Below are positions 6,779 to 32,754 of a stretch of 36,132 nucleotides of DNA, piece by piece. The translations under genes and the position numbers were made by a program. Each line of letters begins with the position of its first letter. The stretch's first letter is position 1. This stretch comes from Rhodoplanes serenus (GTDB taxonomy: Bacteria > Pseudomonadota > Alphaproteobacteria > Rhizobiales > Xanthobacteraceae): positions 1 through 36,132 of the forward strand of contig CAMDEB010000003.1 of assembly GCA_945893085.1 (NCBI GenBank). Direction: 5' to 3'. The notes under the pieces were generated by a model, which had not been told where the DNA came from, did not search any database, and saw only the letters and a list, made by a program, of their open reading frames with translations.

Positions 6779-7827
6779 TACTTGAAGATCTCGGTGAAGT
6801 CGGTCTTCGCCCGGTCGAAGTCTTCCGAGCGGCCGATGTCGAGCCAGTACTCGTGGATCGGATAGACGCAGGCGTGGCCGGTGCGCACGCGCGCACGCTC
6901 GAACAGATCGGTCATGTTGAGCTTCTCGTTCCGGTCGATCGTTGCGATGGTGGACGGGCTCAGCACATAGATGCCAGCGTTGACGAAGAAGCGTTGCAAC
7001 GGCTTTTCGGTGACGCCGACAAAGCTGTGACCGTCGGATTTCACGACGCCGTATGGAATCTGGAAGTCGTACTCGCGCACGCACATGGTGGCGTCGCTTT
7101 TCTCGTCCAGATGGAAATTCAGGAGCTTGGAGAAGTCGATGTTGGTGAGGATGTCGCCGTTCATCACCAGCACGGGCTTGTCCGGCAGCGGCGGCAGCAG
7201 CGAAAGCGAGCCCGCGGTGCCGAGCGGCTCGTTCTCCTGGACATAGTGGATGTCGGCACCGAACTGTGCGCCGTCGCCGAAATGCGTCCTGATCTGGTCG
7301 GCCTTGTAGTTCACCGAGAGATAGAACGAGCGGAAGCCCTGGGAGACGAAAGTGCGGATGATGGTTTCGAGGATCGGCTGGCCGCCGACGTGAAGCAGCG
7401 GCTTGGGAGTTTCGATTGTCATGGGATGTAGCCGCTGGCCGAGCCCGCCCGCCATCAGCACCACCGGGTTGTCGCGCCAGGTGGAGCCGACAAGGTCCGA
7501 CATGGCTTCAAGACCGACGATGCGGCCGTCTTTGTCGACCAGCGGGACGTGGCGCAGCGCATGCGTCCGCATCAGCGCGAGAGCTGCATCGTGACCCGCA
7601 TCGGCCGGCAGCGTCTTCGGACTGCGGTTCATTATCTCTGCAGCCGGGCTCTGCAGTGTGACGCCGCGGAGGAAGCCGCGCCGGATGTCGCCGTCGGTCA
7701 CCACGCCCATGAGTTGGAACTGTTCGTTGGTAACCAGAGCAAACTGCATGCCGCCGCGGTCAATCGCCTGAATCGCGTCCTGAACGGTCGCCGTGGATTT
7801 AACGACGATGGATTTCCAATCGATCAT
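6778..7827 (-). CDS. CBS-domain nucleotidyltransferase, PtmE-like (putative glucosamine-1-P guanylyltransferase)
   Basis: N-terminal CBS pair (VTDGDIRRGFLRG, LRHVPLVDKDGRIVG), then VVLMAGGLGQRLHPMTIETPKPLLHVGGQPILE nucleotidyltransferase signature, MNGDILTNIDF. Confidence 0.88.
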   Translation of the reverse strand: MIDWKSIVVKSTATVQDAIQAIDRGGMQFALVTNEQFQLMGVVTDGDIRRGFLRGVTLQSPAAEIMNRSPKTLPADAGHDAALALMRTHALRHVPLVDKDGRIVGLEAMSDLVGSTWRDNPVVLMAGGLGQRLHPMTIETPKPLLHVGGQPILETIIRTFVSQGFRSFYLSVNYKADQIRTHFGDGAQFGADIHYVQENEPLGTAGSLSLLPPLPDKPVLVMNGDILTNIDFSKLLNFHLDEKSDATMCVREYDFQIPYGVVKSDGHSFVGVTEKPLQRFFVNAGIYVLSPSTIATIDRNEKLNMTDLFERARVRTGHACVYPIHEYWLDIGRSEDFDRAKTDFTEIFK

Positions 7828-8933
7828 GGCTTGATTTGAATTCGGAGGTCGGTCTTGGAGCGGTCGCTGTGCGAGCGCACGGGATAGAGGATGCGGGCTT
7901 CGCTTGGCAACTGTTGACTGACGAGGGCGCTGCGGCGGTTGCCGAGGTTGTTGAACATCGGCGGCACGGCGAGCTTCATCTCGGGGTGGAGAAGGTAGGA
8001 AACGTAGTCCACCAGCAGCCCGAGCCGCTGCTTGCCTGGGAAATCCGGAATTTTCCAGGCAAGATCGGACGTGCCAGCATAGAGGCGGAGCAGGGCATCG
8101 GCCTCCGGCCCGGTCAGCAGCCCTTCGCTGCGGCCGAAGTCGATCAGCTCCACCGCGAAGTCGAGATAGAGGAACCGCACCGCGAGCACGAGCATCTTGA
8201 GGAGCTTCGCGCGTCCGAGATCGAGCCGTCCGGCGAGATGGGCGCGGTGGTAGGCATAGAAATCGCGCAGATAAAGCACGTAGGCGGAGTCGATCGGGCC
8301 CTTCTTGCCGCCGAAGCGGCGGTCAACGGTTCGCGACATGCGCGAGGTCTGGATGTCGAACAGCACGAAGCCGTTGTCCTGAACGAACTGGTCGAAGGCC
8401 GCGAAGGTGGTCGTGGTGTCGGCGAAGCGGATGAACTTGATCTCGGAGATGATCCCGAGCGTGTGCCCGGCCAACGCCTTGGTCCCGCCGCGAAGCACGT
8501 TGAGTTCGGTGCCCTCAGTGTCGAGCTTGATGAAATCGGGTTGGAGCTGCGCTTGCTCCCGGCAAATATCGTCGAGCCGCTCGCAGCGGACGGAAATTTC
8601 CTCGAACGGGGTCGCCCCGGATTCGGCGATCAGCGCATTGGGATTGAGGCTCGAACTCGTCGGCGCCGCCGGATAGACGCGGAACGTGGCGCGGCCCGCA
8701 ACGTCGGTCAATGCGGTTTCGTGCAGGCGGACGTTGCGGCTTCCGGCGTACATGGTCTTGAGTTTTTCGAAGCTCGCCGGCATCGGCTCGAAACCATGCG
8801 CAAACCAGAGGTCCTCGGTTCCTGGCGGGAACAGCGGATAGATGCCGCCGGCTGCGCCCGCGTCGTAAATCGCGAAGGGCGATGCACGGAAATCGGCTGA
8901 AAAGCTTGAGCCGAGAAACGGATCGAATTTCAT
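7824..8933 (-). CDS. FkbM-family methyltransferase
   Basis: IYDAGAAGGIYPLFPPG...FEPMPASFEKL, FIKLDTEGTELNVLRGG. Confidence 0.8.
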   Translation of the reverse strand: MKFDPFLGSSFSADFRASPFAIYDAGAAGGIYPLFPPGTEDLWFAHGFEPMPASFEKLKTMYAGSRNVRLHETALTDVAGRATFRVYPAAPTSSSLNPNALIAESGATPFEEISVRCERLDDICREQAQLQPDFIKLDTEGTELNVLRGGTKALAGHTLGIISEIKFIRFADTTTTFAAFDQFVQDNGFVLFDIQTSRMSRTVDRRFGGKKGPIDSAYVLYLRDFYAYHRAHLAGRLDLGRAKLLKMLVLAVRFLYLDFAVELIDFGRSEGLLTGPEADALLRLYAGTSDLAWKIPDFPGKQRLGLLVDYVSYLLHPEMKLAVPPMFNNLGNRRSALVSQQLPSEARILYPVRSHSDRSKTDLRIQIKP

Positions 8934-9655
8934 GGCCGCTTCGTTCCGCGCGCCGCGCCCGCTTGAGAGCGGCGCGACAGCAGGTATTCGGCGAAATCGA
9001 GATCGAGCTCGTCGTCGATGTCGAGACAGCGCTCGCGCGCCACGATCGCGCCCTTGACGCGCCCCTCGAACAGATCGTTGTGCGACAGAATAAACGCCGG
9101 CGTCGTGACGTAGGCCACAGTCGCCAGGTCATAGACCGGCGGGGCGTCCTGCCGGTTGGAAATGACGCGGCCGGCGTCGGAGGCAATGCCGAGCGTGCCG
9201 TCGTCGCGCCTGCGAACCATGTTGAAATAGGGATTGCGCGCCGACGGCGTCATCGTCACCACGGCGTCGCAGCCGCCGGATTTCAGGGTGTCGATGCAGG
9301 CCGTGAGGTCCTGCGGGTCGCGCATCGGCGATGTCGTCGGCACCGAAAGAAAAGCGTCGAAGCGGTCGCCCGCATCCTGCACGGCGCGGATCGCATGCTG
9401 CCAGGCGAGCCACTCCGGGCTGTCGTCACGGGCCAATTCGGCCGGGCGCATGAACGGCACCTCGGCCCCGTGGCGGCGCGCAGTGTCCGCTATCTCGGCG
9501 TCGTCGGTCGACACGATGATGCGCGCAACACGTCCGCAGGCTTTCGCCGCGTCGATCGACCAGGCGATCAGCGGTTTGCCCGCAAGCAGGCGGATGTTCT
9601 TTCGCGACACGCCCTTCGATCCACCGCGCGCAAAGATGAAGGCGAGGACGCGCAT
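8930..9655 (-). CDS. Acylneuraminate/legionaminate cytidylyltransferase (copy B)
   Basis: MRVLAFIFARGGSKGVSRKNIRLLAGKPLIAWSI, SVPTTSPMRDPQDL, CLDIDDELDLDFAEYLL. Confidence 0.9.
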   Translation of the reverse strand: MRVLAFIFARGGSKGVSRKNIRLLAGKPLIAWSIDAAKACGRVARIIVSTDDAEIADTARRHGAEVPFMRPAELARDDSPEWLAWQHAIRAVQDAGDRFDAFLSVPTTSPMRDPQDLTACIDTLKSGGCDAVVTMTPSARNPYFNMVRRRDDGTLGIASDAGRVISNRQDAPPVYDLATVAYVTTPAFILSHNDLFEGRVKGAIVARERCLDIDDELDLDFAEYLLSRRSQAGAARGTKRP

Positions 9656-9656
9656 C

Positions 9657-10283
9657 TCAGTAGCGCGCTCCGGCCGTGACGTGCGTGCCCGACGCGACTG
9701 CGCGGGAGACGACCGCGCCCGCGCCGACCAGGACGTCGTCGCCGATGGAAATGCCGTGAATGACGATCGCGCCGGTGCCGAGATGGCTGCGCGCTCCGAC
9801 AGAGACATTGCCGCTGAGAACCGCGCCCGGCGCCACATGGACATGGTCGCCGATGCGGCAATCGTGATCGATCGAGGCGGAGCTGTTCACGATGGTGTTG
9901 CGGCCGACATGGACGCCGCATTGCAGGACCGCGCCGGCCATGATCTGCGTGCCTTCCGCCAGATTGCATTGGTCGCCGACCGTGGCGGCCGGGTGGATCA
10001 GCGTGGCGAAGCGCCAGCCGTCGGCGGTCATGCGTTCGAACACGGTTCGACGGATCGTGACATCGCCGACGGAGCCGATGCCGTTGGCGAGCAGATGGCT
10101 GTGCTTGTCCATGCGCGCCAGCGCGTCGTCATTGCCGAGCACGGTCACCCCGAGCGGTCCGGGCTGGCCCGGCTTGAGCTCCGGCGCGCAGACACCGGCG
10201 ACGGAAAATCCGGCGCGCCGTAGGCCGTCGATCACGACCCTCGCATGGCCGCCGGCGCCGAGCACGATCACGTCAGCAGGCAT
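9657..10283 (-). CDS. NeuD/PglD-type (LegH-like) sugar O/N-acetyltransferase, left-handed beta-helix
   Basis: MPADVIVLGAGGHARVVIDGLRRAGFSVAG followed by hexapeptide repeats (IMAGAVLQCGVHVGRNTIVNSSASIDHDCRIGDHVHVAPGAVLSGNVSVG). Confidence 0.88.
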   Translation of the reverse strand: MPADVIVLGAGGHARVVIDGLRRAGFSVAGVCAPELKPGQPGPLGVTVLGNDDALARMDKHSHLLANGIGSVGDVTIRRTVFERMTADGWRFATLIHPAATVGDQCNLAEGTQIMAGAVLQCGVHVGRNTIVNSSASIDHDCRIGDHVHVAPGAVLSGNVSVGARSHLGTGAIVIHGISIGDDVLVGAGAVVSRAVASGTHVTAGARY

Positions 10284-11380
10284 GCGTCGATCGGCTGGTC
10301 TTTGGCATAGTTCCGGTCGGCGCGGCGGCCGATCAGGTCCCACAGCCGGACCGGGGGGATGCCGGTGCCGGGCCGCTTGACGCAAAGGTCTTCGGCCGAG
10401 ATCGTCGCGCCTTCCGCAATCGCGCGCGCTGCGACCACGCTCTTTAGCGCCACGTCGCGGTTTGCAAGCTCGGCCTGGCGCGGCGTCTTGTCGCCATCGC
10501 CGAGCGCGCGCTCGACCGCGCGGATGCCGTCGACGAGCTGTTTCAGTTCGCCCGGTTCGATCGAGGCCTTGTGATCGGGCCCCGGCAGCGTCCGGTCCAT
10601 CGTCAGGTGCTTTTCGATCACGCATGCGCCGCGCGCCACGGCGGCGAGCGTGATGGTGAGCCCCTCGGTGTGATCGGAGTAGCCGACCGGAAGCTTGAAT
10701 CGCTCGCGCAGCGTATCCATTGCGCGCAGGTTCACGTCACTTGGACTGGTCGGATAGTCGGTGGTGCAATGCAGAATGATGACACGGCCGGAGAGCAGCG
10801 ATGCCCCGGTCGCAAGCGCCGCGGCGAAACCTGCGGGACCGGCCGCCGCGCCGGCCTTGTCGGCATAGCCGAACGCCAGCGCGCCGAGCGCCATGGCGAC
10901 ATCGCCGATGGTGCGCATGCCGGTCGACAGGATCACGTTCAGCCCGCGGCGCGCGACATCGACCAGAAGCGGGGCGTTGGTCAGGTCGCCCGAGCCGATC
11001 TTGATCGTCTTCAGGCCCATGTCTTCGGCCAGGAACCGCAGGCTTTCGCCGTCGAACGGCGTCGACAGGAATTCGATGCCGCGCTTGGCGCAATGGGCAG
11101 CCAGCGTGTGGTGCGCCTCGTGGCCGAGCTCCAGCCGCCGCAGCATGGCGTGCTGGGTCTCGTCATGGCCGGTCTGCTTGATCTGGTACGCAGCCTTCGA
11201 CGCCGTGCCGGTGACCAGCGCATCGGCGCGAAAGGTCTGGAACTTGACCGCATTGGCCTTGGCATCTGCGGCCGCTTCGACCAGCGCGATGGCGCGCGCG
11301 AGATCGCCGTTGTGATTGACGCCGGCTTCGGCGATGACGAATACCCGGTCTTGCACCCGATATTGCCCCGGCACGGTCAC
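10268..11380 (-). CDS. neuB: N-acetylneuraminate/legionaminate synthase (NeuB/LegI) with C-terminal SAF domain
   Basis: VFVIAEAGVNHNGDLARAIALVEAAADAKANAVKFQTF, LKTIKIGSGDLTN, VILSTGM, HCTTDYPTSPSDVNLRAM, GYSDHTEG, EKHLTMDRTLPGPDHKAS. GTG start ~11380 overlapping the neuC stop. Confidence 0.95.
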   Translation of the reverse strand: MTVPGQYRVQDRVFVIAEAGVNHNGDLARAIALVEAAADAKANAVKFQTFRADALVTGTASKAAYQIKQTGHDETQHAMLRRLELGHEAHHTLAAHCAKRGIEFLSTPFDGESLRFLAEDMGLKTIKIGSGDLTNAPLLVDVARRGLNVILSTGMRTIGDVAMALGALAFGYADKAGAAAGPAGFAAALATGASLLSGRVIILHCTTDYPTSPSDVNLRAMDTLRERFKLPVGYSDHTEGLTITLAAVARGACVIEKHLTMDRTLPGPDHKASIEPGELKQLVDGIRAVERALGDGDKTPRQAELANRDVALKSVVAARAIAEGATISAEDLCVKRPGTGIPPVRLWDLIGRRADRNYAKDQPIDACLLT

Positions 11381-12546
11381 GCTCTCGCCATCGGCAGATC
11401 GACGAAGGCCTTGGTCAGGAGGCGCGACAGGTCGCTGCTCGTCAGCACCTGATGAATGCGCTCGGCTGCGCCGCCGCGGCCGTAGGGCGGATTGGCGTGT
11501 TGTGCCTGCGCGCGAAACTCGGGCGAGATTGCGCGGGCGATGGCGCTCTTGATCGCGTTCGCATCGGCCGGGCAGTCGATGATCGAGGCGGCGCGAAGCC
11601 GCCCGGTCTGCCGCGTGCCGATGTTGACGGCCGGCAGGCCGAGCGCCGGCGCCTCGATAATTCCGGATGAGGAATTGCCGACCATCGCCGCTGCGATCCG
11701 CAGCAGCGAGAGGTAGCGCCGCAGGCCGAGCGAGGGGACGACGCGCGCATTCGCGCGTCCGGCTGCCCAGCGCTCGATCGTCTGGTTGATCGCGGCTCCG
11801 CCCGGATCGGCGCCGGCCTTGGTCATGACGACAGTCGCCTGCGGAAAGGCTTCGAGTGCCTCCAGCATGGCGGCTGCAGGCGCTATCGGCGACGCCGATG
11901 CGGTTTCCGGATGGCATGTCACGGCGAGGACAGGATCGCGCAGCTTAAGGCCGATATCGCGCTCGAGTTGTTCACGCGTGAGCGGCGCATGTTCGGCGAT
12001 ATTGTCGAGGCCCGGCGCACCCGAAACGACCACGCGATCCGGCATCTCGCCCATTTGCAGGATCCGGTCGCGGTACGCGTCCGCGGCCGGAAAATGCAGA
12101 TGCGCCATCTTGGTGACGGCATGGCGGATGGCGTCGTCGATCGCGCCTTCGGTGACTTCGCCGCCATGAATGTGCGCGAGCGGGATGCCGAGAATCGTGC
12201 AGCAGGAGGCCACCGCGATCAGCTCGATGCGGTCGCCGAGCACCACGACCACATCCGGCGCGATCCGGTGAAGCGCTTTCGCTATCTCGCCGAGCCCGTG
12301 TCCCAGCGCCTCGGCGGCCGAAAGCCTGGTGCCGCCGTCGAGCGGCAGCGGCACTCTTGCGGCGATCGGCATGCCATCGGCCTCGATCTCGGCGACGGTC
12401 ATGCCGAATTCCGGCTGCAAATGCGCGGCCGTCACGACGAGGCTGAGATCGACTGTGGAATCCTGCCGCAGCCGAAACAGCAGGCCGCGGAGCAGGCCAT
12501 ACTCGGCCCGCGATCCCGTCACCACACAGATATGGCGGCGCTTCAC
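11377..12546 (-). CDS. neuC: UDP/GDP-N-acetyl-sugar 2-epimerase (hydrolysing), NeuC/LegG
   Basis: ICVVTGSRAEYGLLRGLL, VVVLGDRIELIAVA, IPLAHIHGGEVTEGAIDDAIRHAVTKMAHLHF, GNSSSGIIEAPALGLPAVNIGTRQTGR. Confidence 0.93.
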   Translation of the reverse strand: MKRRHICVVTGSRAEYGLLRGLLFRLRQDSTVDLSLVVTAAHLQPEFGMTVAEIEADGMPIAARVPLPLDGGTRLSAAEALGHGLGEIAKALHRIAPDVVVVLGDRIELIAVASCCTILGIPLAHIHGGEVTEGAIDDAIRHAVTKMAHLHFPAADAYRDRILQMGEMPDRVVVSGAPGLDNIAEHAPLTREQLERDIGLKLRDPVLAVTCHPETASASPIAPAAAMLEALEAFPQATVVMTKAGADPGGAAINQTIERWAAGRANARVVPSLGLRRYLSLLRIAAAMVGNSSSGIIEAPALGLPAVNIGTRQTGRLRAASIIDCPADANAIKSAIARAISPEFRAQAQHANPPYGRGGAAERIHQVLTSSDLSRLLTKAFVDLPMARA

Positions 12547-13718
12547 GGCGTGGCCAGCTTGGGGCTGCTCGGAAGGCAGAGGATGCGCGCCTGCAGGTCC
12601 TCCGCGACGGCCAGCGTGGCGCTGCGCGGCGCATCGGCAAACATCGGCAACCGGTGCATCAGCTCCCAGAGCGGGCGCGCATAGAGCCCTGCTTCGTGTA
12701 GAGCTTCGAGCATCCGGTCTCTTTGCTCGAGACGGCGAAGCAACACCGCGTTGAGCCAGTAATTGCTCTGCGTGCCGGCCGGCTCCGATACGAACGCGAG
12801 GCCCGGCAGCGCCTGACAGGCATCCTGATAGCCCGCGGCGAGGCGGCGCTTGCGCGCAACGAAGTCATTGAGCCGTGCAAGCTGGGCAAGACCGAGGGCG
12901 GCGTTGAGGTTGGGCATCCGGTAGTTGAAGCCGATCTCGTCGTGGACGAAGGCCCACTTGTGCGCCTGCTTGGCGGTGGTCGTGATGTGCCGAAGGCGCT
13001 CGGCAATGGCGTCGTCGTCGGTGAGGATCGCGCCGCCGCCGCCGGTGGTGACGATCTTGTTGCCGTTGAAGCTCAGCACCGACAGTTCGCCGAACGAGCC
13101 GGCGGGCTTTGCATCGCGCAGGCTGCCGAGCGATTCGGTCGCGTCGACGATCAGCGGAAGGTCATAGAGTTTGGCAATCTCGGCAAGCCGGACGTCGTCG
13201 GTCGGATGGCCCAGCACATGCACCGGCACGATCGCGGCGATCCGGCGGCCGGTGTTTTTGTTGCGGATATTCTTGCCGTCCTTCAGCACCATTGCGCGGA
13301 GCGTCTGCACGAGATTGTCGGGATCGAGGCCGAGGGTCTCCGGCGCGCTGTCGAGCAGGTGCGGGATCGCGCCGCAATACGCCACCGCGTTGGCGGTCGC
13401 GATGAATGTCAGCGCCGGGATCAGAACCTCGTCGCCGCGCTCGACGCCCGCGACCAGAAGCGCGGCGTGCAGCGCGGCCGTTCCCGAGACGGTGGCGATG
13501 CAGTGCTTACGCCCGCAGGTCCGGGCGAGCGCTGACTCGAACTCCCGGACCTGCGGCCCGGCATAGGAGACCCATCCGCTGTCGAGGCAGGCGGCCAGCA
13601 TTTCCTTGTCGCTGCCGGCGAACTCGGGCTCGTGCAGGGCTGCGGGCAGCGCGCCCGGCGCAATCACCGAGGCGAGCTTTTTGACTGCGGCGGCAATGTC
13701 GAGAACGTCAGATGACAT
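12543..13718 (-). CDS. LegC-type DegT/DnrJ/EryC1 aminotransferase
   Basis: GDEVLIPALTFIATANAVAYCGAIPHLLDS, LPLIVDATESLGS, SVLSFNGNKIVTTGGGGAILTDDD (PLP lysine context N-G-N-K retained). Confidence 0.9.
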   Translation of the reverse strand: MSSDVLDIAAAVKKLASVIAPGALPAALHEPEFAGSDKEMLAACLDSGWVSYAGPQVREFESALARTCGRKHCIATVSGTAALHAALLVAGVERGDEVLIPALTFIATANAVAYCGAIPHLLDSAPETLGLDPDNLVQTLRAMVLKDGKNIRNKNTGRRIAAIVPVHVLGHPTDDVRLAEIAKLYDLPLIVDATESLGSLRDAKPAGSFGELSVLSFNGNKIVTTGGGGAILTDDDAIAERLRHITTTAKQAHKWAFVHDEIGFNYRMPNLNAALGLAQLARLNDFVARKRRLAAGYQDACQALPGLAFVSEPAGTQSNYWLNAVLLRRLEQRDRMLEALHEAGLYARPLWELMHRLPMFADAPRSATLAVAEDLQARILCLPSSPKLATP

Positions 13719-14715
13719 ATTGCCCGACCCGATAGCGCGAGAGATTGGCCGGATCGGCGAACCACTTGGTCGTCAGTTCAAGACCGCGCCGCATTCCCTC
13801 GCGTCCGCCAAAATCCGGTTTCCATCCCAGCACTTTTTCGGCCTTGCGATTGTCGGCCCACAGCCGCTCGACTTCGCTGTTGGCCGGACGAAGCCGCACC
13901 TCGTCGGTCTCGATCTGGACGGTTACGCCCATCACCTCGGCGATCAGCTTTGCGGTGTCGCCAATCGAAATCTCGAAATTGCTGCCGATGTTGATGACCT
14001 CGCCCGCGGCCGAGTCGTCGGACTCCAGCACGGCGAGAAAACCGGAAACCGTGTCGGCCACGTAGTTGAAATCGCGGGTGGGGCTGGTGGCGCCAAGGCG
14101 GATGCGGCGCTGGCCCGCGGCAATCTGGGTGATGATGGTCGGGATGACCGCGCGCGCGGACTGCCGCGGCCCATAGGTGTTGAACGGCCGGATGACGGTG
14201 ACCGGCAGACCGAACGAGGAGTGGAACGACAGTGCGAGCTGGTCGGCCCCGATTTTCGTCGCGGAATAGGGCGACTGGCCTTGCAGCGGATGCGCCTCGG
14301 TGATCGGCACAAAGCGTGCCGTGCCATAAACCTCGCTGGTCGAGGTGTGCACAATCTTGCGCAGCGAAAGGTCGAGCGCCGCCTGCAGCACGTTCAGCGT
14401 GCCAGAAATGTTGGTTTCGACATACGCATGGGGTGCGCGATAAGAAAACGGAATGGCGATCAGCGCGGCCAGATGCAGCACGGCTTCGCAGCCGCGCATC
14501 GCCTCGCGAACCGCCAGCGGATCGCGGATATCGCCGGCCTGCACTTCGACCGCGCGCTTGACCTTTTCGTCGGCGGAGTCGAGCCAGCCCCAACTGTCGA
14601 AGGAGTTGTAGAACACGAAGGCGCGCACGTCGTAGCCGCGCGCCACCAGTGTCTCGACGAGATGCGATCCGATGAAGCCATCGGCGCCGGTCACGAGAAT
14701 TTTGCCTTTCCGCAT
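13708..14715 (-). CDS. NAD-dependent epimerase/4,6-dehydratase, LegB-type
   Basis: KILVTGADGFIGSHLVETLVARG, STSEVYGTARFVPITEAHPLQGQSPYSATKIGADQLA, RPFNTYGPRQSARAVIPTII. Confidence 0.9.
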   Translation of the reverse strand: MRKGKILVTGADGFIGSHLVETLVARGYDVRAFVFYNSFDSWGWLDSADEKVKRAVEVQAGDIRDPLAVREAMRGCEAVLHLAALIAIPFSYRAPHAYVETNISGTLNVLQAALDLSLRKIVHTSTSEVYGTARFVPITEAHPLQGQSPYSATKIGADQLALSFHSSFGLPVTVIRPFNTYGPRQSARAVIPTIITQIAAGQRRIRLGATSPTRDFNYVADTVSGFLAVLESDDSAAGEVINIGSNFEISIGDTAKLIAEVMGVTVQIETDEVRLRPANSEVERLWADNRKAEKVLGWKPDFGGREGMRRGLELTTKWFADPANLSRYRVGQYVI

Positions 14716-21892: not shown

Positions 21893-22840
21893 TCAGGCCC
21901 GCTTTTGCAAAAGGATCGTACGCGCACCGCCAATCTTGCAAATGAAGTCCACGGCATCGTCGTCGCGGATGTTCTCGTAGATCACCCGTTCGACATCATC
22001 CGTCAAAACGCGATCGGTGCCGGCATAGCCGCGCGCCTCCACCAGCGCCGTTCCGCGCTGCGACGACGAAGCCAGATAGCGAACGTGATAGCCGAGCGCG
22101 AACAGATTGCGCAGCGGCTTTTCCATGTCGTGGCTGGCGTCGTAGCGGGACAAATGCGTCTCGAAAATAATCATCGGCGCCAGTTCGCCGCGTTCGATGG
22201 CGCCGATCATGCCGTTGAAGACCTCGACCTCGTGGCCCTCCACGTCCATGCGAATGAGATCGGGCCGGCCGTGTTCCTTCGCCAATTCGGGAACGGTATA
22301 GGTGCGGACCTTTACGGTTTGTCCCGAAAGATGTGTTTTGCCGCTGCCGGTGGCATGGAACGTATTGAGGTTTGATTGATGGGCCAGAAAGAATTCGCGT
22401 TCGCCCGCGCTGTCGGATACCGCGCCGGCGATCACGGGGACGCCGCCATAGCCGTTCAGCGCCAGATTTTTCTTGAGTAGCTCGACATTCGTCGGCGACG
22501 GCTCGACGGCGATCATTCGCCCGGTTGGGCCGATCAGGCCGAGCTCCATCAGCACGTAATAGCCAAGGTTGGCGCCGATATCGAGAACTGCCATCCCGGG
22601 CTTCAGCACTTTCTCGAGAATGATTTTGTGGTCGATCTCGCGGGTGCCAAACAGGATGAGCGAGCGGCTGATACCCTTATCCTCAAGATCGAGCAGCATG
22701 CGGTAGTCATGGATGCGGCGTTCGATGAAACGCCGTCGCAGCACGTGCTTTTGCAGTCCACTGCTCAATGCGTTCACGACCGCCGAGGCAAGTGCGGCGG
22801 GTCCGCGGGTTCGCAGGGTGACCAGCGCGCCGTTCAGCAT
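21893..22840 (-). CDS. FkbM-family methyltransferase
   Basis: GMAVLDIGANLGYYVLMELGLIGPTGRMIAVEPSPTNVELLKKNLALNG; DLIRMDVEGHEVEVFNGM. Confidence 0.88.
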   Translation of the reverse strand: MLNGALVTLRTRGPAALASAVVNALSSGLQKHVLRRRFIERRIHDYRMLLDLEDKGISRSLILFGTREIDHKIILEKVLKPGMAVLDIGANLGYYVLMELGLIGPTGRMIAVEPSPTNVELLKKNLALNGYGGVPVIAGAVSDSAGEREFFLAHQSNLNTFHATGSGKTHLSGQTVKVRTYTVPELAKEHGRPDLIRMDVEGHEVEVFNGMIGAIERGELAPMIIFETHLSRYDASHDMEKPLRNLFALGYHVRYLASSSQRGTALVEARGYAGTDRVLTDDVERVIYENIRDDDAVDFICKIGGARTILLQKRA

Positions 22841-23676
22841 GCCGCGACCCTATCGCGCGGCAGCAGCAGATATTCGTCGAGGCGGAAGGATTGCACCGGC
22901 GAGCCGTCGATTTCCCGGCACAGGTATCCTTGGGCTTCGATCAGGGCGACAAGTGCGTCGGTGCTGCTGCCCAGGAGCTTGAGATGCGCGGGATGGATGC
23001 TCAGGTAGATGCGCGGCCGGCAACGGCGCATCGTTTCAGCGGCGCCCTGCAACACCTGATATTCGGCACCCTCGACATCAATCTTGATGACCTGCGGGCA
23101 GAGGTTGCTGCGTTCGCAGAAGCTGTCGAGCGAAATCTGGCTGTGGCTGGTTTTGGTGAAGCGGCTCCGATCGCCTTTGACTGCAAACCCATTGAGTCCG
23201 CTTGCGCCCGCCTCTTCGAAGAACGGCACCTGATCCTCCTCCGTTCGTCCGACCAGGGTATCGATGACCTCGACATTCCTGATGTCGTTATCGGCGATAT
23301 GGCGCCGCAGGCATTGCAAGTTCCCGCTTGCCGGTTCGAATGTGTACACCCGGCCCCCCGGCGCCACCGCGCGGCTCATCGGCAATGTCACCAGCCCGAT
23401 ATGGCCGCCGACGTCGAACACGCAGTCGGCGCCGCGGCAAGCCTCGATGCATTCCCTGAAGCCGCTATTGTGAGCGCCGCCCCAGTTTTCGAAATTGCTG
23501 AACGCAAATTCCGGCTGCAGCAGGAACGGCCCGTAGGGGCCGATGCGCTGGGAACTCGGCCGGCTCAGCCCCGCCTGGCAAGCCATCCGATAGGCACGAC
23601 CAAGCAGCAGCCATACGGGACCGAGCGCCTTCATGGGACCGTGACGCAATCGCCGCAGGATCGCAACAGCGCTCAT
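22834..23676 (-). CDS. FkbM-family methyltransferase
   Basis: CVFDVGGHIGLVTLPMSRAVAPGGRVYTFEPASGNLQCLRRHIADN; QVIKIDVEGAEYQVLQGA. Confidence 0.85.
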   Translation of the reverse strand: MSAVAILRRLRHGPMKALGPVWLLLGRAYRMACQAGLSRPSSQRIGPYGPFLLQPEFAFSNFENWGGAHNSGFRECIEACRGADCVFDVGGHIGLVTLPMSRAVAPGGRVYTFEPASGNLQCLRRHIADNDIRNVEVIDTLVGRTEEDQVPFFEEAGASGLNGFAVKGDRSRFTKTSHSQISLDSFCERSNLCPQVIKIDVEGAEYQVLQGAAETMRRCRPRIYLSIHPAHLKLLGSSTDALVALIEAQGYLCREIDGSPVQSFRLDEYLLLPRDRVAAC

Positions 23677-24338
23677 GGCCGGCGCTGCTCGGCATGCTCC
23701 GGATCCTCCGCGGTTGCGCGGGGGAAGCGGGACACGCGCAGCATCCTCGGTGTCAGTATGCGGTCGCCCCCGATTTCCGCGGCAAGCCGATCGTAGGCGG
23801 CCTGCGGATTCTTCAACACTGTGAGCATCACCGCATCCCTCGGCGGCAATTGATCGAGGCTTGTTACGGCCCGCAGATTGCCCAGCGAGCCGCCATGTGG
23901 ATCCGCGATGCCGACCACCTCGATGCCGTATTCGGACGAGCAAAGCTGCGCCACCTCCGCGAGTTCGCTCAGCCCGTACAATGCAATGCGCGTCCAGCCG
24001 CGCTGCTTGCAATCGTCCAGCGCCGTCTCGCATTGCTTGCGCGCCACCCGAAAGAAGCTGAAGGACGCTTGCAGGTATTCTCCGGTCAGTCGGCTCTTCT
24101 CGATGAAGCCGTCAGCGGTCAGGTAGTAGGCATAGCGGCGCGGCGGCACCGACTTGATCTTGATCAGGCCCTTGCGGATGCAGCGCTTGAGATAAGCGTT
24201 GGTCAGGCCCAGCGCGATGCCGAGCTCGCTCGCGAGCGACCGCTGGGTGATGAGATGGTTCTGCTCCACCGAGGTGAGGACGGCGAGCACGATCTCCGAG
24301 CCGTCTTTGCCCCCCGGCAGTTTCTCCTCGGCGTCCAT
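23673..24338 (-). CDS. Winged-helix transcriptional regulator with C-terminal Rossmann-like domain
   Basis: VLTSVEQNHLITQRSLASELGIALGLTNAYLKRCIRKGLIKIKSVPPRRYAYYLTADGF (wHTH), then RIALYGLSELAEVAQLCSSEYGIEVVGIADP (nucleotide-binding-like beta-alpha-beta). Confidence 0.8.
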   Translation of the reverse strand: MDAEEKLPGGKDGSEIVLAVLTSVEQNHLITQRSLASELGIALGLTNAYLKRCIRKGLIKIKSVPPRRYAYYLTADGFIEKSRLTGEYLQASFSFFRVARKQCETALDDCKQRGWTRIALYGLSELAEVAQLCSSEYGIEVVGIADPHGGSLGNLRAVTSLDQLPPRDAVMLTVLKNPQAAYDRLAAEIGGDRILTPRMLRVSRFPRATAEDPEHAEQRRP

Positions 24339-24619: not shown

Positions 24620-26551
24620 ATGACATCAAAACCGAGTTTTCGATCGCTTGCCGACACAACTCCGCGCGTCATCGGAGTTGGAACGTTCAGCGCCTCGGCG
24701 CGCGCCAAGCAGCTTGTCATGGAGGCGCTCGACAACAATCGGCTCTCCTATGGGCCGATGATGCAGCAGTTCGAGGCCGACTTCGCCAAGCTGCATGGCT
24801 GCCGGTTCGGGATCATGAGCAATTCCGGCACCAGCGCATTGCAGCTTGCGCTCCAGGCGATGAAGGAACTTCACGATTGGCAGGATGGGGACGAGGTCAT
24901 CATCCCCGCGGTGACCTTCGTCGCAACAGCCAACATCGTCCTGCACAACAGAATGATGCCGGTGGTGGTTGATGTCGATCCGAAATACTACGAGCTAAAC
25001 CCGGAATTGATCGAGCGGGCCATCACGCCGCGCACGCGAGCGATCATCCCGGTGCACCTGTTCGGCCAGCCTGCCGAAATGGCCCCGATCGTTGAAATTG
25101 CGCGAAAGCACTCGCTCAAGATCATCGAAGATTCCGCGGAAACCATGTTCGCGAGCTACGACGGACGGCGCGTCGGTTGTCTGGGGGATGTTGGCTGCTT
25201 TTCGACCTATGCCGCGCATCTTCTTGTCACAGGGGTCGGCGGTCTCAACACCACAAACGAACCGGACTACGCGATCAAGATTCGCTCGCTGCTGAACCAT
25301 GGCCGCGACTCGATCTACATTTCGATCGATGACGACAAGAACAAGTCGCAGGAGGAGTTGCGCACGATCATCGAGCGCCGATTCCGGTTCATCTCGATCG
25401 GTCACAGCTTTCGCTCGACCGAGATGGAAGCAGCGCTCGGTCTTGCGCAACTGGAGGATTGGCGGCCGGGAATCGAGCAAAGACGACGCAATGCGGCGCA
25501 GCTCACCCGCGCACTCAAGAAGTTCGACAATCATCTGCAGACACCCGAGATCCGTCCGGGATGCGAGCATTCGTTCATGATGTATCCGCTTGTCCTGCGC
25601 AGCGAAGATAAGCGTCGATTGGTCAACTTCCTCGAGGAAAACGGCATCGAGACGCGCGATATGCTCCCCCTGACCAACCAGCCTGTCTATCACCGGCTGC
25701 TGGGCTGGCGGGAGGATGAATTCCCGGTCGCGCAATGGATCAACAACAACGGGTTCTATGTCGGCTGCCACCAGGATCTGACCGACATCGATCTCGAATA
25801 TATTGTCGAGTCGTTCGACCGCTTTTTCCGGGGCGCGCCGTCGCAGCTTGCCGAGGGCGCAACCCTGGTCCTGCTGGTGGGACGCGACACCAAGCCCGGC
25901 AAGCTCGACCTGAACAGCCTCTCGACCGAACTGTTCACGCAGATATTGGTGATCGACGACAATGCTCCGCCCGCGGTCCGCGCCGAATTCGTGCAGGGGG
26001 GCTTCGAGGTCATTGACGCAAAGGGCGATGATCCATTGGATCTGATCGCAGCGTCCGGCGATGTGTTCCGCTCCGACTCCGTCGTCATATTTCCGCTCAA
26101 TGGGCAGTGGAATCCAAAGGACATCCCGCGCCTCATGGTCGCGCTGAGCCGTGGTTACGACCTCGTCATTGCTTCGCGCTTCATCATCGGCGGCGAGCGT
26201 CAGGGCGAGCACGGACATGTCCGGAGCTTGGGAAACCGCGTTTTCAATCTCTTTGCCAGCGTGCTGTTCGGCGGCAATCTCAGCGACGGCTTCAGCTCGT
26301 TCAGGGCGGTCCGCCGCTCCAAGCTGATGGCGGCCCGTCCGCCGGGGCGCGGCATCGTGAAATCCTTCGCGCTGTCGCTTGAGGCGCTCAAGCGCGGTTG
26401 GCGCATCCACGAGATTCCGACCGTCGAGATCACCAGATCGACCGGCCAGGTGATTGGCGACAGCCTTACCAGCATCGTTCCCGCGTTTGTGATTTTGGCA
26501 AGGGAATGGTGGTCGCAGCGCCGGCAACAGACGCCAGGGTCAAATCGATAA
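24620..26551 (+). CDS. Fusion: DegT/DnrJ/EryC1-fold PLP-type domain (PLP Lys apparently replaced by His) plus C-terminal GT2-like domain
   Basis: N-terminus GIMSNSGTSALQLALQ, DEVIIPAVTFVATANI, IIEDSAETMF, CFSTYAAHLLVTGVGGLNTTN. C-terminus VVIFPLNGQWNPKDIPRLMVALSRGYDLVIASRFIIGG...SLGNRVFNLFASVLFGGNLSDGFSSFRAVRR (DPM1-like GT2). Start ATG at 24620. Confidence 0.85.
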   Translation: MTSKPSFRSLADTTPRVIGVGTFSASARAKQLVMEALDNNRLSYGPMMQQFEADFAKLHGCRFGIMSNSGTSALQLALQAMKELHDWQDGDEVIIPAVTFVATANIVLHNRMMPVVVDVDPKYYELNPELIERAITPRTRAIIPVHLFGQPAEMAPIVEIARKHSLKIIEDSAETMFASYDGRRVGCLGDVGCFSTYAAHLLVTGVGGLNTTNEPDYAIKIRSLLNHGRDSIYISIDDDKNKSQEELRTIIERRFRFISIGHSFRSTEMEAALGLAQLEDWRPGIEQRRRNAAQLTRALKKFDNHLQTPEIRPGCEHSFMMYPLVLRSEDKRRLVNFLEENGIETRDMLPLTNQPVYHRLLGWREDEFPVAQWINNNGFYVGCHQDLTDIDLEYIVESFDRFFRGAPSQLAEGATLVLLVGRDTKPGKLDLNSLSTELFTQILVIDDNAPPAVRAEFVQGGFEVIDAKGDDPLDLIAASGDVFRSDSVVIFPLNGQWNPKDIPRLMVALSRGYDLVIASRFIIGGERQGEHGHVRSLGNRVFNLFASVLFGGNLSDGFSSFRAVRRSKLMAARPPGRGIVKSFALSLEALKRGWRIHEIPTVEITRSTGQVIGDSLTSIVPAFVILAREWWSQRRQQTPGSNR

Positions 26552-26561
26552 GCGGGGCGCG

Positions 26562-27266
26562 GTGGATATTCTTCTGTGCATGCTGGTACGCAATGAGAGG
26601 CAATGCCTTGAGGTCATTTTGCCGACTCTTCCCAAGCCGGGTCCCGGCGCGGGGTTCGACCGCTTGATAGCGGTGGATGGCGGGTCGACCGACGGCACGC
26701 TCGATGTGTTGCGCCGGGCGGGCATCGAGGTGTTTGAACAGACCCGGCGCGGTCGCGGCGCCGCCTGTATCGAGGCGATGGAGAAATTCACCGCCGATGC
26801 CTATTTGTTTTTCTCGCCCGACGGAAATGAGGATGTGGCCGATCTGCCGAAGTTTCGCGGCTATCTCGATGACGGCGCCGACCTCGTCATCGCCTCGCGA
26901 ATGATGGCCGGCGCCGTCAACGAGGAGGACGCTGGCTTCTTCAAGCCGCGCAAGATCGCCAATCTCGGGTTCAATCTGGGGGCCAATTTGGTATTTCGCA
27001 GGAGTGGCCCGTTCATCACGGATTCCATAAACGGCTTCCGGGCGATCCGCCGCACGCTTGCGGAGCGGCTGCAACTCGATGCGGCCGACTACACGATCGA
27101 ATATCAGATGACGATTCGCGCATTGCGGGCCGGCGCGCGGGTGATCGAATTCCCGACCCACGAATATCCGCGGATCGCGGGACAGACCGGGGCGCCGAGC
27201 TTTGCCACGGGCGTCAGCTTCATCCGGCGTTTCTTCACCGAATTGCGCGTTCCTGCTCCGACATGA
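26562..27266 (+). CDS. Glycosyltransferase family 2 (DPM1-like)
   Basis: VDILLCMLVRNERQCLEVILPTL...LIAVDGGSTDGTLDVLRRAG...LFFSPDGNEDVADLPKF...DLVIASRMM; GTG start. Confidence 0.85.
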   Translation: MDILLCMLVRNERQCLEVILPTLPKPGPGAGFDRLIAVDGGSTDGTLDVLRRAGIEVFEQTRRGRGAACIEAMEKFTADAYLFFSPDGNEDVADLPKFRGYLDDGADLVIASRMMAGAVNEEDAGFFKPRKIANLGFNLGANLVFRRSGPFITDSINGFRAIRRTLAERLQLDAADYTIEYQMTIRALRAGARVIEFPTHEYPRIAGQTGAPSFATGVSFIRRFFTELRVPAPT

Positions 27267-27297: not shown

Positions 27298-29217
27298 ATG
27301 TGCGGCATCGGCGGCATCTGGCACTTTGGCGGCACCGCGGAGGCTCAACTCAGCGCCGACGTTCGCGCGCTGACCGATGCCATCGCCTATCGCGGGCCGG
27401 ATGGCGACGGTCACTGGGTCGATGCGCAAATCGGCATTGCGCTCGGACATCGCAGGCTCGCCATCATCGATCTGTCGGCGGCCGGCTTTCAACCGATGTC
27501 GAGCGCCAACGAGCGCGTCGTCATCACTTACAATGGCGAACTCTATAACGCGGCCGAAATGGCCGCCGAACTGGCCATGCCGTTTCGCGGGCACTCCGAC
27601 ACCGAGATTTTGGTTGAGGCGATCGCTCGCTATGGCATCGACGCGGCGCTCCGCCGGACCAATGGCTTGTTCGCTTTCGCCGCCTTTGATCGCTCCACGC
27701 GCACCTTGCATCTCGCGCGAGACCGGCTCGGCATCAAGCCGTTGTACTACAGCAGACAGAATGGCCGCATCGGCTTTGCCTCCGAGTTGAAGGCGCTCCG
27801 TGCGATTCCGGGATTCCGCTTCACACTTGATCCTTCCGCCGTCGCGGCCTACCTGCGCCACGGCTGTGTTCCGGCGCCGCGAACGATCTATCGCGAGGTT
27901 GCAAAGCTGCTGCCTGGCGAACGTATCGAGGTGACGGCGCACGAGATGCGGAACGAACTCTACTGGGACCTCGCGTCGATCGCCAAGAGCCGCCAGGCGA
28001 CGATGACGCAGCACGATTTTGACGACGTCGTCGATGAGCTTGATCAACTTCTCGGCGATGCCGTCAAGCGGCAGATGATATCGGATGTGCCGTTGGGAGC
28101 GTTCTTGTCCGGCGGCATCGACTCCTCGGCGGTCGTCGCCCTGATGCGCGCCGCAGGCAATGGATCGGTCAAGACCTTCTCGATCGGCTTTCGGGAGAAG
28201 GCCTTCAATGAAGCCGATCATGCCCGCGCGGTGGCACGGCACCTGGGAACCGAGCACACGGAATTGATCTTGTCGGCGGCCGAGGCGCAAGCTGTGATCC
28301 CGAAACTGCCCGCGATCTACGACGAACCGTTCGCGGATTCATCGCAAATCCCGACCTACCTGGTTTCGCAACTGGCCCGTTCCAAGGTCACTGTTGCGCT
28401 GTCCGGCGACGGCGGTGACGAGGTGTTTGGGGGCTATGTTCGTTATCGTGGTATCGCAGGGCTTTGGAACACTCTCCGCCACGTCCCATCCGGTGCTCGG
28501 CACTTTGGTGCAAGCGCGATCCGATGGCTCTCGCCTGAGGGCTACGATGTTCTGGGCCGCGCGGTGCCGCGTGGCCTGCGGCCCACGCATTTCGGCGACA
28601 AGATCCACAAGGCGGCGGGCTTGCTCGACGCCGATGGACCTATCGAGATGTACCGGCGATTGATCTCGCAATGGGCAAGCTCGGACCGGTTGATGCCAGG
28701 AACCATCGAAGCGTCCGGTTGGCTCGATCGCCTGGCGCCCGGGACCGAAGGGTTGGAAACCTCCGCTCGCCTTCGCCTTCTCGACATGATGGGCTATCTG
28801 CCGGACGACATCCTGACCAAGGTCGATCGTGCGGCGATGGCGGTCAGTCTGGAAGTTCGGGTGCCGCTGCTCGACCATCGGGTCGTCGAATACGCCTGGG
28901 GCCTTCCCCCCGGTCAACTGATCGCCAACGGCAAGACTAAGCGGCCGCTGCGCGCGGTGTTGAGCCGTTACGTGCCGGACGCTCTGTTCGAGCGGCCGAA
29001 GATGGGTTTTGGTGTCCCGATCGGCGAATGGCTCCGAGGTCCGTTGCGCGGTTGGGCGGAGGACCTGATGGCACCTGATCTGCTGGCCCAGCAAGGCTTG
29101 TTCGATCCACTTGTGTTGCGGCAGCGGTGGGACGAGCACCTTTCCGGGCGGCGCAATTGGCAGCACGCGCTTTGGACGGTGCTGCAATTCCAGGCTTGGT
29201 GGCAAACCTATCGGTAG
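27298..29217 (+). CDS. asnB: Asparagine synthase (glutamine-hydrolysing)-like amidotransferase
   Basis: MCGIGGIWHFGG (Cys2 glutaminase), AIAYRGPDGDGHW, LAIIDLSAAGFQPM, GAFLSGGIDSSAVVALM (PP-loop), VALSGDGGDEVFGGY. Confidence 0.94.
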   Translation: MCGIGGIWHFGGTAEAQLSADVRALTDAIAYRGPDGDGHWVDAQIGIALGHRRLAIIDLSAAGFQPMSSANERVVITYNGELYNAAEMAAELAMPFRGHSDTEILVEAIARYGIDAALRRTNGLFAFAAFDRSTRTLHLARDRLGIKPLYYSRQNGRIGFASELKALRAIPGFRFTLDPSAVAAYLRHGCVPAPRTIYREVAKLLPGERIEVTAHEMRNELYWDLASIAKSRQATMTQHDFDDVVDELDQLLGDAVKRQMISDVPLGAFLSGGIDSSAVVALMRAAGNGSVKTFSIGFREKAFNEADHARAVARHLGTEHTELILSAAEAQAVIPKLPAIYDEPFADSSQIPTYLVSQLARSKVTVALSGDGGDEVFGGYVRYRGIAGLWNTLRHVPSGARHFGASAIRWLSPEGYDVLGRAVPRGLRPTHFGDKIHKAAGLLDADGPIEMYRRLISQWASSDRLMPGTIEASGWLDRLAPGTEGLETSARLRLLDMMGYLPDDILTKVDRAAMAVSLEVRVPLLDHRVVEYAWGLPPGQLIANGKTKRPLRAVLSRYVPDALFERPKMGFGVPIGEWLRGPLRGWAEDLMAPDLLAQQGLFDPLVLRQRWDEHLSGRRNWQHALWTVLQFQAWWQTYR

Positions 29218-29353: not shown

Positions 29354-30412
29354 ATGCCGGACAAAATTGCGCTGATTACCGGTGTGACGGGCCAGGATGG
29401 CGCGTATCTGGCCGAGCTTCTGCTCGCTAAAGGCTATGTCGTCCACGGCGTGAAACGGCGTTCGTCGTCGTTAAATACAGCGCGCGTCGACCACCTTTAT
29501 GCCGACCCGCATACCGAAGATACGCGGTTCTTCCTTCATTACGGTGACCTGACCGACGCCACCAATTTGATCCGTCTCATCCAGGAAACGCAGCCGACCG
29601 AAATCTATAATCTCGCCGCGCAAAGCCACGTGCAGGTGAGCTTCGAGACACCGGAATACACCGCAAACTCCGACGCGCTTGGCACGCTTCGGCTGTTGGA
29701 GGCCATTCGCATCCTGCGCCTGGAGCAACGCGTGAAATTCTATCAGGCGTCGACCTCTGAGTTGTACGGAAACGCGCGGGAGATGCCGCAGCGGGAGACG
29801 ACCCCGTTCGCGCCACGCAGTCCCTATGCGGCCGCCAAGCTCTATGCCTATTGGATCACGGTCAATTACCGCGAGGCCTATCGGATGCACGCGTCGAACG
29901 GCATCCTGTTCAACCACGAGAGTCCCGTGCGAGGCGAGACATTCGTCACCCGCAAGGTCACGCGCGCCGTCGCTGCGATCCACGGCGGACAGCGGCAGCC
30001 GCTGTTCATCGGCAATCTCGACGCCAAGCGCGACTGGGGCCACGCCCGCGACTACGTCGAAGGCATGTGGATGATGCTGCAGCAGGCGGAGCCCGATGAT
30101 TACGTGCTGGCGACCGGCGAGACGCATTCGGTGCGTGAGTTCATCGAAAAATCGTTTGCGGTGGCCGGCCGCACCATCGTGTGGCGCGGGCGAGACCTCG
30201 AGGAGATCGGCGTCGACAAGGCCGATGGCGAAGTTCTGGTCAAGGTCGACCCGCGCTATTTCCGGCCGACCGAGGTGGACGTCTTGCTCGGCGACGCCAG
30301 CAAGGCCCGCGCGAAATTGGGCTGGCGGCATCGCGTGTCTTTCGATGACCTGGTCGTCGAAATGGTGTCAAGCGACATCAAGGAGTACCGGGCCGCGGGG
30401 AGGCAGCAATGA
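29354..30412 (+). CDS. gmd: GDP-mannose 4,6-dehydratase
   Basis: [95 protein letters not shown] just upstream of ATG 29354. Confidence 0.97.
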
Positions 30413-31371
30413 CCGCGGGCCGGCCGGCGAACTACGATCTTGCCGGCAAGCGCGTCTGGGTTGCGGGGCATCGCGGGTTGGTCGGCAGCGCGCTGGTGCG
30501 CCGCCTCGCCAGCGAGAATTGCGAAATCCTGACCGTTGGGCGCGACACGGTCGACTTGCGCCGCCAGGCGGATGTCGAGCGCTGGATGGAGCAGGCCAAG
30601 CCCGACGCGATCTTCGAGGCCGCCGCCACGGTCGGAGGAATATTCACCAACGAAAACCGGCCGGCCGAGTTTCTTTACGACAACCTTGCGATCGAGACGA
30701 ACATCATCGAAGCGGCAAGACGCGTCGGCGTGGGCAAGCTTTTGTTCCTTGGCTCATCCTGCATCTATCCCCGTCTCGCGCCGCAGCCGATCCCCGAAAA
30801 TGCCCTGCTGACCGGTCCACTGGAGCCCACGAACCAGTGGTATGCGCTCGCGAAAATTGCCGGCAGCATGCTGTGCCAGGCCTACAGGCGGCAGTATGGC
30901 CTCGATTTCATTTCGACGATGCCGACGAATCTCTACGGGCCCGGCGATAATTTCGAACTGGCGACGAGCCACGTCATTCCCGCGTTGATGGCAAAGGCCC
31001 ATGCGGCGAAGGCCAAGGGCGGTGCGGAAATCGTCGTCTGGGGCACCGGCACGCCGAGGCGGGAGTTTCTCTATGTCGACGATCTGGCCGACGCGCTCGT
31101 TTTCCTCATGAAGAACTACTCGGACGAGGAGCACATCAACGTTGGCACCGGTTCCGAGATCACGATCAAGGAATTGGCGACGCTGATCGCTCGCGTTGTC
31201 GGGGCCGACGGAAAATTGCGGTTCGATTCGAAAATGTCCGATGGGACGCCACGCAAGCTCGTCGACTCGACGCGTCTCTTGTCGATGGGGTGGCGTCCGC
31301 GGACCGGCCTTGAGCAGGGATTGCGCCAGACATACGACTGGTATTTGAAGAGCGCCGCGGCGCGCAGTTGA
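30409..31371 (+). CDS. fcl: GDP-L-fucose synthase-family epimerase/reductase (Fcl/WcaG or ColC-like)
   Basis: [99 protein letters not shown]. Confidence 0.95.
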
Positions 31372-31383
31372 CCTTGCAATCGA

Positions 31384-32754
31384 TCAGGCAATTTCCTTGT
31401 TCGGGCGCCGGCGGGACAGCAACGACCATCCCGCTCCCGTCAGAACCGCTAGCACCGGCTCCATCGGCAGGCGGTATTTCGGCGAAGCGATCGGTCCGCT
31501 GATCCCCAGGATGAAGAGGCACCACCCGACGAGCAGCAATGTGGGCGCCCATTGCCGCTGCTGGATGAGTGCAACCAGGCCGCCGAGTTGCAGGAGGCGC
31601 ATGACCAGCACGCCGGCAACCCCGATCAGCAGTATCCAGCCGTACAGAACGCTGTCCGAATGGAAGAGGAAGTTTGCAATCTTGTCGAATATTGTCGGGC
31701 CTGAGGTTCCATAGAATCCGGTTCGCGGGATTTTCGACACCGGCGGCGAAAGAGTGAGCGCGGGAGATCCGAGATTGATCGCCGACCCGAATGCCCAGGA
31801 CTTTGCAATCCCGACCGGTCCGATGCGGATAAGCTCTTCGACGGCAACCTGCGTGTAGCGGCGCGATTCCTGGAACGAATTTTCGTTGGGCTCCTTGGGT
31901 ATCAGGGCCGCGCGCCGCTCCATCTCCTCGAATCCGCGCACCCAGGGTGTACCGTCGCGCACCTCCCAGGTCAGCGGGACGACCCAGCGTGCGAGATGAG
32001 TGCCGCCCTGCGGCGTGAACGCCCACGAATCGTGGATCATCTTGTTTTGCAGCGAGATCGGAAAGATCGATAGCGCGAAAAGCACGAACATGGCGCCAAG
32101 TTGCGTGGCATGCCGGCGATGGAAGCGGCCGGCCGCCATGACTGCAACAAGCAGAAAGATCGCAAGCGCAGGCGCGAACGGGACCACCATGATCCTCATC
32201 CATGCCGCGCCCGCGAGCCCGATGGTCATGATCGCGGTGCCGGACCAGCAAGGGGAGCGCAGCCAGCGCATGGCGCCGTAGAGAAACAAGGCGACAAAAA
32301 ATACAAACGGCGTGTCCGGATAGGCCAGGCCGGCCACCACGATCTGGGTTGGGTTGATGACAGCAGCGATCGCCGCGGGGCGCGCGAAACGCTCGTCGAT
32401 GGCGTTTGCAATTCCGTACACCAGCACGCAAGTGCCGGAATCGAACAATCCCTGCGTCAGGATATAGGCAAAGGCTGTGTGATCGGCTGTCACGAATGCA
32501 TTGATGGCCATTAGCCAACGAAACAGCGGCATCATGAAAGGATTGGGGCCGAACAAATACCAGCCGTGCAATGTGCCGGCTTGAATGCTGGATGCGATAA
32601 CTTGACCGGCCCTGACGTAGTCCGCGGAATCGACGCCGAGGAGTCCGGCTTCACCCATGAATGCAAACAGGACGGAAGCGTAGATCCAGCGGATCGCGAG
32701 CGCGGCGAGAAAGATCGTTACAAGCGTGCGGGCGATCGAGCGTGGGGCGGTCAT
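31384..32754 (-). CDS. Polytopic membrane protein, GT39/ArnT-like (GT-C fold) glycosyltransferase candidate
   Basis: Multiple hydrophobic segments; early acidic loop GVDSADYVRAG, conserved C-terminal GPIASPKYRLPMEPVLAVL. Confidence 0.75.
   Translation of the reverse strand: MTAPRSIARTLVTIFLAALAIRWIYASVLFAFMGEAGLLGVDSADYVRAGQVIASSIQAGTLHGWYLFGPNPFMMPLFRWLMAINAFVTADHTAFAYILTQGLFDSGTCVLVYGIANAIDERFARPAAIAAVINPTQIVVAGLAYPDTPFVFFVALFLYGAMRWLRSPCWSGTAIMTIGLAGAAWMRIMVVPFAPALAIFLLVAVMAAGRFHRRHATQLGAMFVLFALSIFPISLQNKMIHDSWAFTPQGGTHLARWVVPLTWEVRDGTPWVRGFEEMERRAALIPKEPNENSFQESRRYTQVAVEELIRIGPVGIAKSWAFGSAINLGSPALTLSPPVSKIPRTGFYGTSGPTIFDKIANFLFHSDSVLYGWILLIGVAGVLVMRLLQLGGLVALIQQRQWAPTLLLVGWCLFILGISGPIASPKYRLPMEPVLAVLTGAGWSLLSRRRPNKEIA

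Follow-up and report, generated by a model that had tools for sequence, protein, structure and literature searches.

A His in place of Lys is the hallmark of the 3-dehydratases (PMC8987622). In these His-type enzymes, bound PMP forms a Schiff base with a 4-keto-6-deoxy sugar and the His initiates loss of the C3 hydroxyl, after which ColD relies on hydrolysis and glutamate, and E1 and SpnQ on an Fe-S route (PMC8987622). A 2022 review lists these three, E1, ColD and SpnQ, as the well-characterised 3-dehydratases (PMC8987622). The same C3 chemistry takes place on GDP-heptose with glutamate in Campylobacter, where the epimerase and the C4-reductase are separate enzymes and the GDP-heptose C3-dehydratases are 62-67% identical to ColD (PMC10440746).

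We found a gene for a further His-type protein, P0001, in Rhodoplanes serenus DNA (Table 1; the window is the whole stretch analysed, 36,132 nucleotides). P0001 matches DegT_DnrJ_EryC1 (PF01041) with 311 bits over residues 28-399, and its DegT domain contains the landmark stretches NSGTSALQLAL and IIEDSAETMF together with STYAAHLLVTGVGG, all of which had been pointed out in an earlier, sequence-only reading. That reading ended the feature at 25840; the gene extends to 26551, with a second, C-terminal domain that had been missed.

Table 1. Features of the P0001 locus (positions in the window).
Feature	Position	Strand	Basis or remark
HTH_24 regulator, divergent	23673..24338	-	Pfam
Fusion gene P0001	24620..26551	+	643 aa; His-type DegT domain and degenerate GT2 domain
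DegT/DnrJ/EryC1-fold PLP/PMP domain, aa 1-405	24620..25834 (3' limit approximate)	+	Pfam PF01041 and model
His200 codon CAT	25217..25219	+	Schiff-base Lys position, by alignment
Val206 codon	25235..25237	+	Clade-invariant; ColD, E1 and almost all Lys-types have Glu
Degenerate GT2/DPM-like domain, aa 425-643 (~220 residues)	25892..26548	+	Alignment to intact paralogues; NCBIfam AglJ 4e-11; under Pfam GT2 cut-off
Intact GT2 (DPM-like) glycosyltransferase	26562..27266	+	Pfam Glycos_transf_2, 43 bits; 10 bases downstream of P0001
AsnB-like amidotransferase	27298..29217	+	Pfam Asn_synthase, GATase_6/7
Gmd, GDP-mannose 4,6-dehydratase, proposed substrate supplier	29354..30412	+	TIGR01472, 609 bits (cut-off 415)
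Fcl-type epimerase/reductase	30409..31371	+	NF047922, 495 bits (cut-off 500); 4-base overlap with gmd

The proposed replacement of the Schiff-base Lys by His was borne out: phmmer places His200 opposite Lys186 in GDP-perosamine synthase and His220 in E1, and a multiple alignment across 61 members of the DegT family pairs it with His188 of ColD. Hence, P0001 has a His where DegT sugar aminotransferases have their active-site Lys. The statement that no Lys lies nearby also held in the sense that none is conserved around the site: the sole family Lys conserved above 90% is K82, in a helix. His200 is not a sequencing error, since turning CAT into any Lys codon would take two or more substitutions and His is found in every relative that covers the site. 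The cofactor residues Thr71, Asp171 and Ser195 are retained, as are the counterparts of five ColD residues, namely Glu174 (Glu162), His227 (His215), Glu344 (Glu329), Arg346 (Arg331) and His384 (His372). None of the four Cys of the E1 [2Fe-2S] cluster is present; C193, C251, C253 and C261 correspond to A173, S231, Y233 and S243. The motif that had been attributed to ColD, SFYPAHHITMGEGG, is that of E1/RfbH; ColD has SFYSHHIATMEGG (PDB 2gms).

A genome scan found eight relatives with best segments of 49-69% identity in uncultured Gemmatimonadota, Latescibacterota, Nitrospirales and Woesearchaeota and one further bacterium, and 31 more loci (L090-L120) came from scanning IMG/VR contigs. By profile search, members occur in 8/279 genomes of the phylum to which the archaeal G206 belongs, in 7/64 and 2/149 genomes of the phyla of G202 and G200, respectively, and in 1/385 Alphaproteobacteria, the window's own genome. 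That genome has a completeness of 81% and a contamination of 4.8%, and gene GC is 60%, versus 65-67% for the other contigs sampled; the low gene GC and the lack of a member in the 384 other Alphaproteobacteria suggest either recent transfer or a mis-binned contig. No close relative was found in plasmid and phage records (all below 60%), and the tested 3-kb flanks of the IMG/VR members held no hallmark virus genes (PHROGs, Pfam). Some of these IMG/VR members, on contigs only catalogued as viral, adjoin GT10 fucosyltransferase-like and ice-binding-like genes.

All site-covering relatives that we found, whether bacterial, archaeal or from IMG/VR contigs, have His at the Schiff-base Lys position and share the signature [TAG]GVGG, in which Val206 replaces the near-universal Glu of xEGG; this column is acidic, almost always Glu, across ColD, E1 and almost all Lys-types. 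His200, Val206, His227, Glu174, Arg346, His384, Asp171 and Ser195 are invariant in 43 aligned members, and Glu344 in the first 19. A second clade-wide change is Ser263 where ColD has Asn248. Our literature search found no description of this His-type clade, and to our knowledge there is no biochemistry for any member.

Two other His-type variants were seen. A 37% relative on Solidesulfovibrio magneticus plasmid pDMC1 (L036:7977-9182) keeps the Glu (SLYVAHIISTIEGG) and adjoins a 'GDP-L-fucose synthase' gene; its placement in the tree is weakly supported (77/17). An IMG/VR variant, SFYASHVITAGGMGG, has Met at the usual Glu position and adjoins a second His-type ColD-like gene (L159:980-2122, L160:980-2122, L178:980-2122).

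The suggestion of a separate His-type family was upheld by maximum likelihood: the members form one clade with the invariant Val for Glu (support 100/99), apart from ColD (100/99) and E1 (100/100), and the Lys-types lie beyond a single 97/92 branch. The new clade is on the His-type (E1/ColD) side of this split whether or not the motif is masked; masking it and dropping long rows still left one branch between Lys- and His-types (95/92). Adding the IMG/VR members gave, in a quick tree, a single His/Lys change and a single Val/Glu change. As all trees are unrooted, one Lys-to-His switch is the simplest reading of them and a likely one, short of proof. Neither a conserved active-site Lys nor clustering with Lys-type aminotransferases, either of which the sequence-only reading had named as counting against it, was found.

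Despite its His-side position, P0001 has its highest raw similarity to the Lys-type GDP-perosamine synthase, and is 24-35% identical to ColD and E1, whose branches are longer. Structural comparison gave the same best match: a model of the DegT domain built from 55 sequences (mean pLDDT 94.8) is closest in the PDB to GDP-perosamine synthase (rmsd 1.6-2.2 Å, 34% identity), with other sugar aminotransferases, E1 and ColD among them, ranking lower. The DegT-only model was used in place of a full-length model from nine sequences (pLDDT 59.9).

The C-terminal domain of P0001 is a paralogue of the GT2 encoded by the next gene, as determined by alignment. We found DegT-GT2 fusions in the window, L009, L010, L076 and L077, every time with an intact GT2 in the locus, and relatives of this intact GT2 (30-53% identical) adjoin other clade members. 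Little of the donor-site motifs VDGGSTDGT and SPDGNEDP survives in the fused domains of the window, L009 and L010, part of VDGGSTDGT is kept in L077, and 3/4 of the fused domains that were tested score under the Pfam GT2 cut-off. The fused domain may serve as a non-catalytic partner.

In the window, the fusion gene is followed after 10 bases by GT2, after another 31 by AsnB, then after 112-136 by Gmd, which overlaps Fcl. The earlier Gmd and Fcl calls proved correct. The window Fcl has the E. coli Fcl residues Ser107, Cys109, Tyr136, Lys140 and His179 and is close to ordinary GDP-fucose synthases in a tree. L076 and L077 likewise have HTH_24 genes beside their fusion genes.

Other genes were also seen in the window. 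A PMT_2-type (GT-C) transferase gene (31384..32754, minus strand) runs convergently to the operon, and its product could use a GT2-made polyprenyl-phosphate sugar. Two FkbM-type methyltransferases (Methyltransf_21) lie end to end at 21893..22840 and 22834..23631 (minus strand). A nonulosonic acid set (6778..14715, minus strand), comprising LegB 4,6-dehydratase, LegC-like Lys-type DegT, NeuB synthase, cytidylyltransferase and PtmE-like CBS-nucleotidyltransferase, probably makes legionaminic acid.

Across the clade, we found Gmd within 5 kb in 11/33 clusters (80% identity; flanks of IMG/VR loci span only 3 kb) and an Fcl/ColC-like gene in 12/33. Either neighbour occurs in 18/33 clusters versus 4/16 cellular Lys-type DegT loci (one-sided p = 0.049), a modest enrichment over controls of a kind in which some enzymes, e.g. 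perosamine synthases, use the same Gmd product; a search for viral Lys-type DegT loci as controls found none. A Gmd-family match is present in 18/19 searched genomes with cellular members, 12 of them over the cut-off, versus 6/14 controls.

Several arrangements were seen. Gmd is directly upstream of the His-type gene in L015, Gmd then an SDR directly downstream in L078, and an Fcl-like SDR directly upstream in L011, L012, L013 and L016, while in G202, G203, G204 and G207 (one close lineage) the genome's only Fcl-like gene adjoins it. Plasmid ColD-type operons run in the order gmd, a 'GDP-L-fucose synthase' in the ColC position and ColD, and one archaeal operon has the same order; L098, L099 and L115 (Gmd, SDR, His-DegT) match the colitose-type operons L066-L069 in gene content. 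L091 and L117 place Gmd, a reductase and an RmlC-like epimerase beside the His-type gene, which resembles the Campylobacter GDP-3,6-dideoxy-heptose set (PMC10440746). Because Ser107, Cys109, Tyr136, Lys140 and His179 of Fcl are present in nearly all neighbouring SDRs, these could be both epimerase and reductase. The SDRs did not group with ColC rather than Fcl in an SDR tree; most form a branch of their own. In two archaeal genomes (L074:4618-7000, L075:7938-10350), the His-type gene is directly beside a Lys-type DegT gene (FSLNxxKxITTGEGG) with a Gmd-like gene near, and this pair could perform dehydration and then transamination to yield a 3-deoxy-perosamine-like sugar.

We consider it likely that the DegT domain of P0001 is a PMP- and glutamate-dependent C3-dehydratase of GDP-4-keto-6-deoxymannose that leads to a GDP-3,6-dideoxyhexose. 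Phylogeny, residue conservation, modelled fold and gene neighbours support the earlier proposal that a deoxygenated GDP-hexose is made by way of a His-type 3-dehydratase, and the clade probably works like ColD while standing outside the ColD and E1 clades. Gmd would supply GDP-4-keto-6-deoxymannose, which would form a Schiff base with PMP; His200 would take the C4' proton of the cofactor and the C3 hydroxyl would depart. Hydrolysis would then release GDP-4-keto-3,6-dideoxymannose, PLP and ammonia, with PMP restored by glutamate. An Fcl/ColC-type enzyme (in the window, the product of 30409..31371) would reduce and epimerise the product to a GDP-3,6-dideoxyhexose, e.g. GDP-L-colitose, and the neighbouring GT2, possibly together with the fused degenerate domain, would hand the sugar on. 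The predicted fold, the His at the Lys position, the place in the clade, the retained cofactor and ColD-type residues, the missing Fe-S ligands and the operon context come directly from the analysis, whereas we infer the substrate, the glutamate dependence, the product and what the fused domain does. The sugar could be a hexose or a heptose, since the Campylobacter chemistry runs on GDP-heptose (PMC10440746). Several points count against this reading: identity to ColD and E1 is low (24-35%), the enrichment of Gmd/Fcl neighbours is modest, the clade-wide Glu-to-Val and Asn-to-Ser (Ser263) changes could mean different chemistry, and the window Gmd and Fcl could simply make GDP-L-fucose.

We weighed these data against other explanations. 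P0001 might perform the same type of C3 dehydration with a different 4-keto nucleotide sugar as substrate, e.g. a GDP-heptose or a sugar linked to UDP or dTDP, with the window Gmd and Fcl making GDP-fucose independently. Several clusters without Gmd within 5 kb fit this, as do LegB and the nonulosonate genes in the window and the activity on GDP-heptose of Campylobacter enzymes so similar to ColD (PMC10440746). However, the 4,6-dehydratase that recurs next to the clade is Gmd, Gmd-family matches are more frequent in member genomes than in controls, and the closest fold is GDP-perosamine synthase, so we regard another substrate as unlikely. A more elaborate view is speculative, and we rate it somewhat improbable: the clade would be a third, ancient PMP-dependent 3-dehydratase lineage with altered active-site chemistry (Val for Glu, Ser for Asn), in some lineages tethered to a pseudo-glycosyltransferase that, paired with the active GT2, would transfer the 4-keto-3,6-dideoxy sugar, or what is made from it, straight to a glycosyl carrier.

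The two remaining explanations concern catalysis itself. Loss of both the Lys and the conserved Glu, and the greatest raw similarity being to a Lys-type enzyme, would suit a former aminotransferase that is now a non-catalytic or regulatory protein; this is very unlikely given that the cofactor residues and His are invariant from bacteria to archaea to IMG/VR contigs, that the clade stays on the His side with the motif masked, and that sugar-pathway neighbours are kept. An E1/SpnQ-type dehydratase, dependent on an Fe-S cluster and an electron donor, would share the same side of the His/Lys split, and the top NCBIfam match is RfbH/E1, yet with 224 bits against a cut-off of 423. Since all four Fe-S Cys positions are replaced, the data favour a ColD-type route, and the clade is apart from E1 with 100% support; hence, the reductase-dependent route is extremely improbable.

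As a separate His-type clade, these proteins would widen the expected range of 3,6-dideoxy sugars to uncultured bacteria, archaea and virus-catalogue contigs. Members match the general aminotransferase family model only. The natural Glu-to-Val variant offers a handle on what separates dehydration from amino transfer, and the fusion with a degenerate glycosyltransferase would allow the physical linkage of a sugar-making enzyme to a sugar-transferring partner to be put to the test.

Compared with known systems, the clade is like ColD (E. coli GDP-4-keto-6-deoxy-D-mannose 3-dehydratase, PDB 2gms) in having His at the Lys position, no Fe-S Cys, the His215, Glu329, Arg331 and His372 columns and, judged by gene neighbourhood alone, Gmd and Fcl/ColC-like partners. 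Unlike ColD, it has Val for the xEGG Glu, Ser for Asn248 and sometimes a degenerate GT2 fusion, and it is a separate, well-supported clade with about 24-35% identity to ColD-type proteins. E1/RfbH (CDP-4-keto-6-deoxyglucose 3-dehydrase, PDB 3bcx) shares the His220 position, the fold and about 30% identity, but belongs to a different clade, has the four Fe-S Cys that the new clade lacks, and its RfbH model scores about half its cut-off. GDP-perosamine synthase (Caulobacter; PDB 3bn1, 3dr4) is the top sequence and fold match, and its substrate, GDP-4-keto-6-deoxymannose, is that proposed for P0001; in contrast, it has Lys186 for His200 and Glu for Val206 and is on the opposite side of the His/Lys split. 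The ArnB-ArnC pair (aminotransferase, then polyprenyl-phosphate glycosyltransferase) is comparable in that a DegT-fold sugar enzyme adjoins a DPM-like GT2 (L084), whereas ArnB has Lys, the genes are separate and the substrate is a UDP-sugar.
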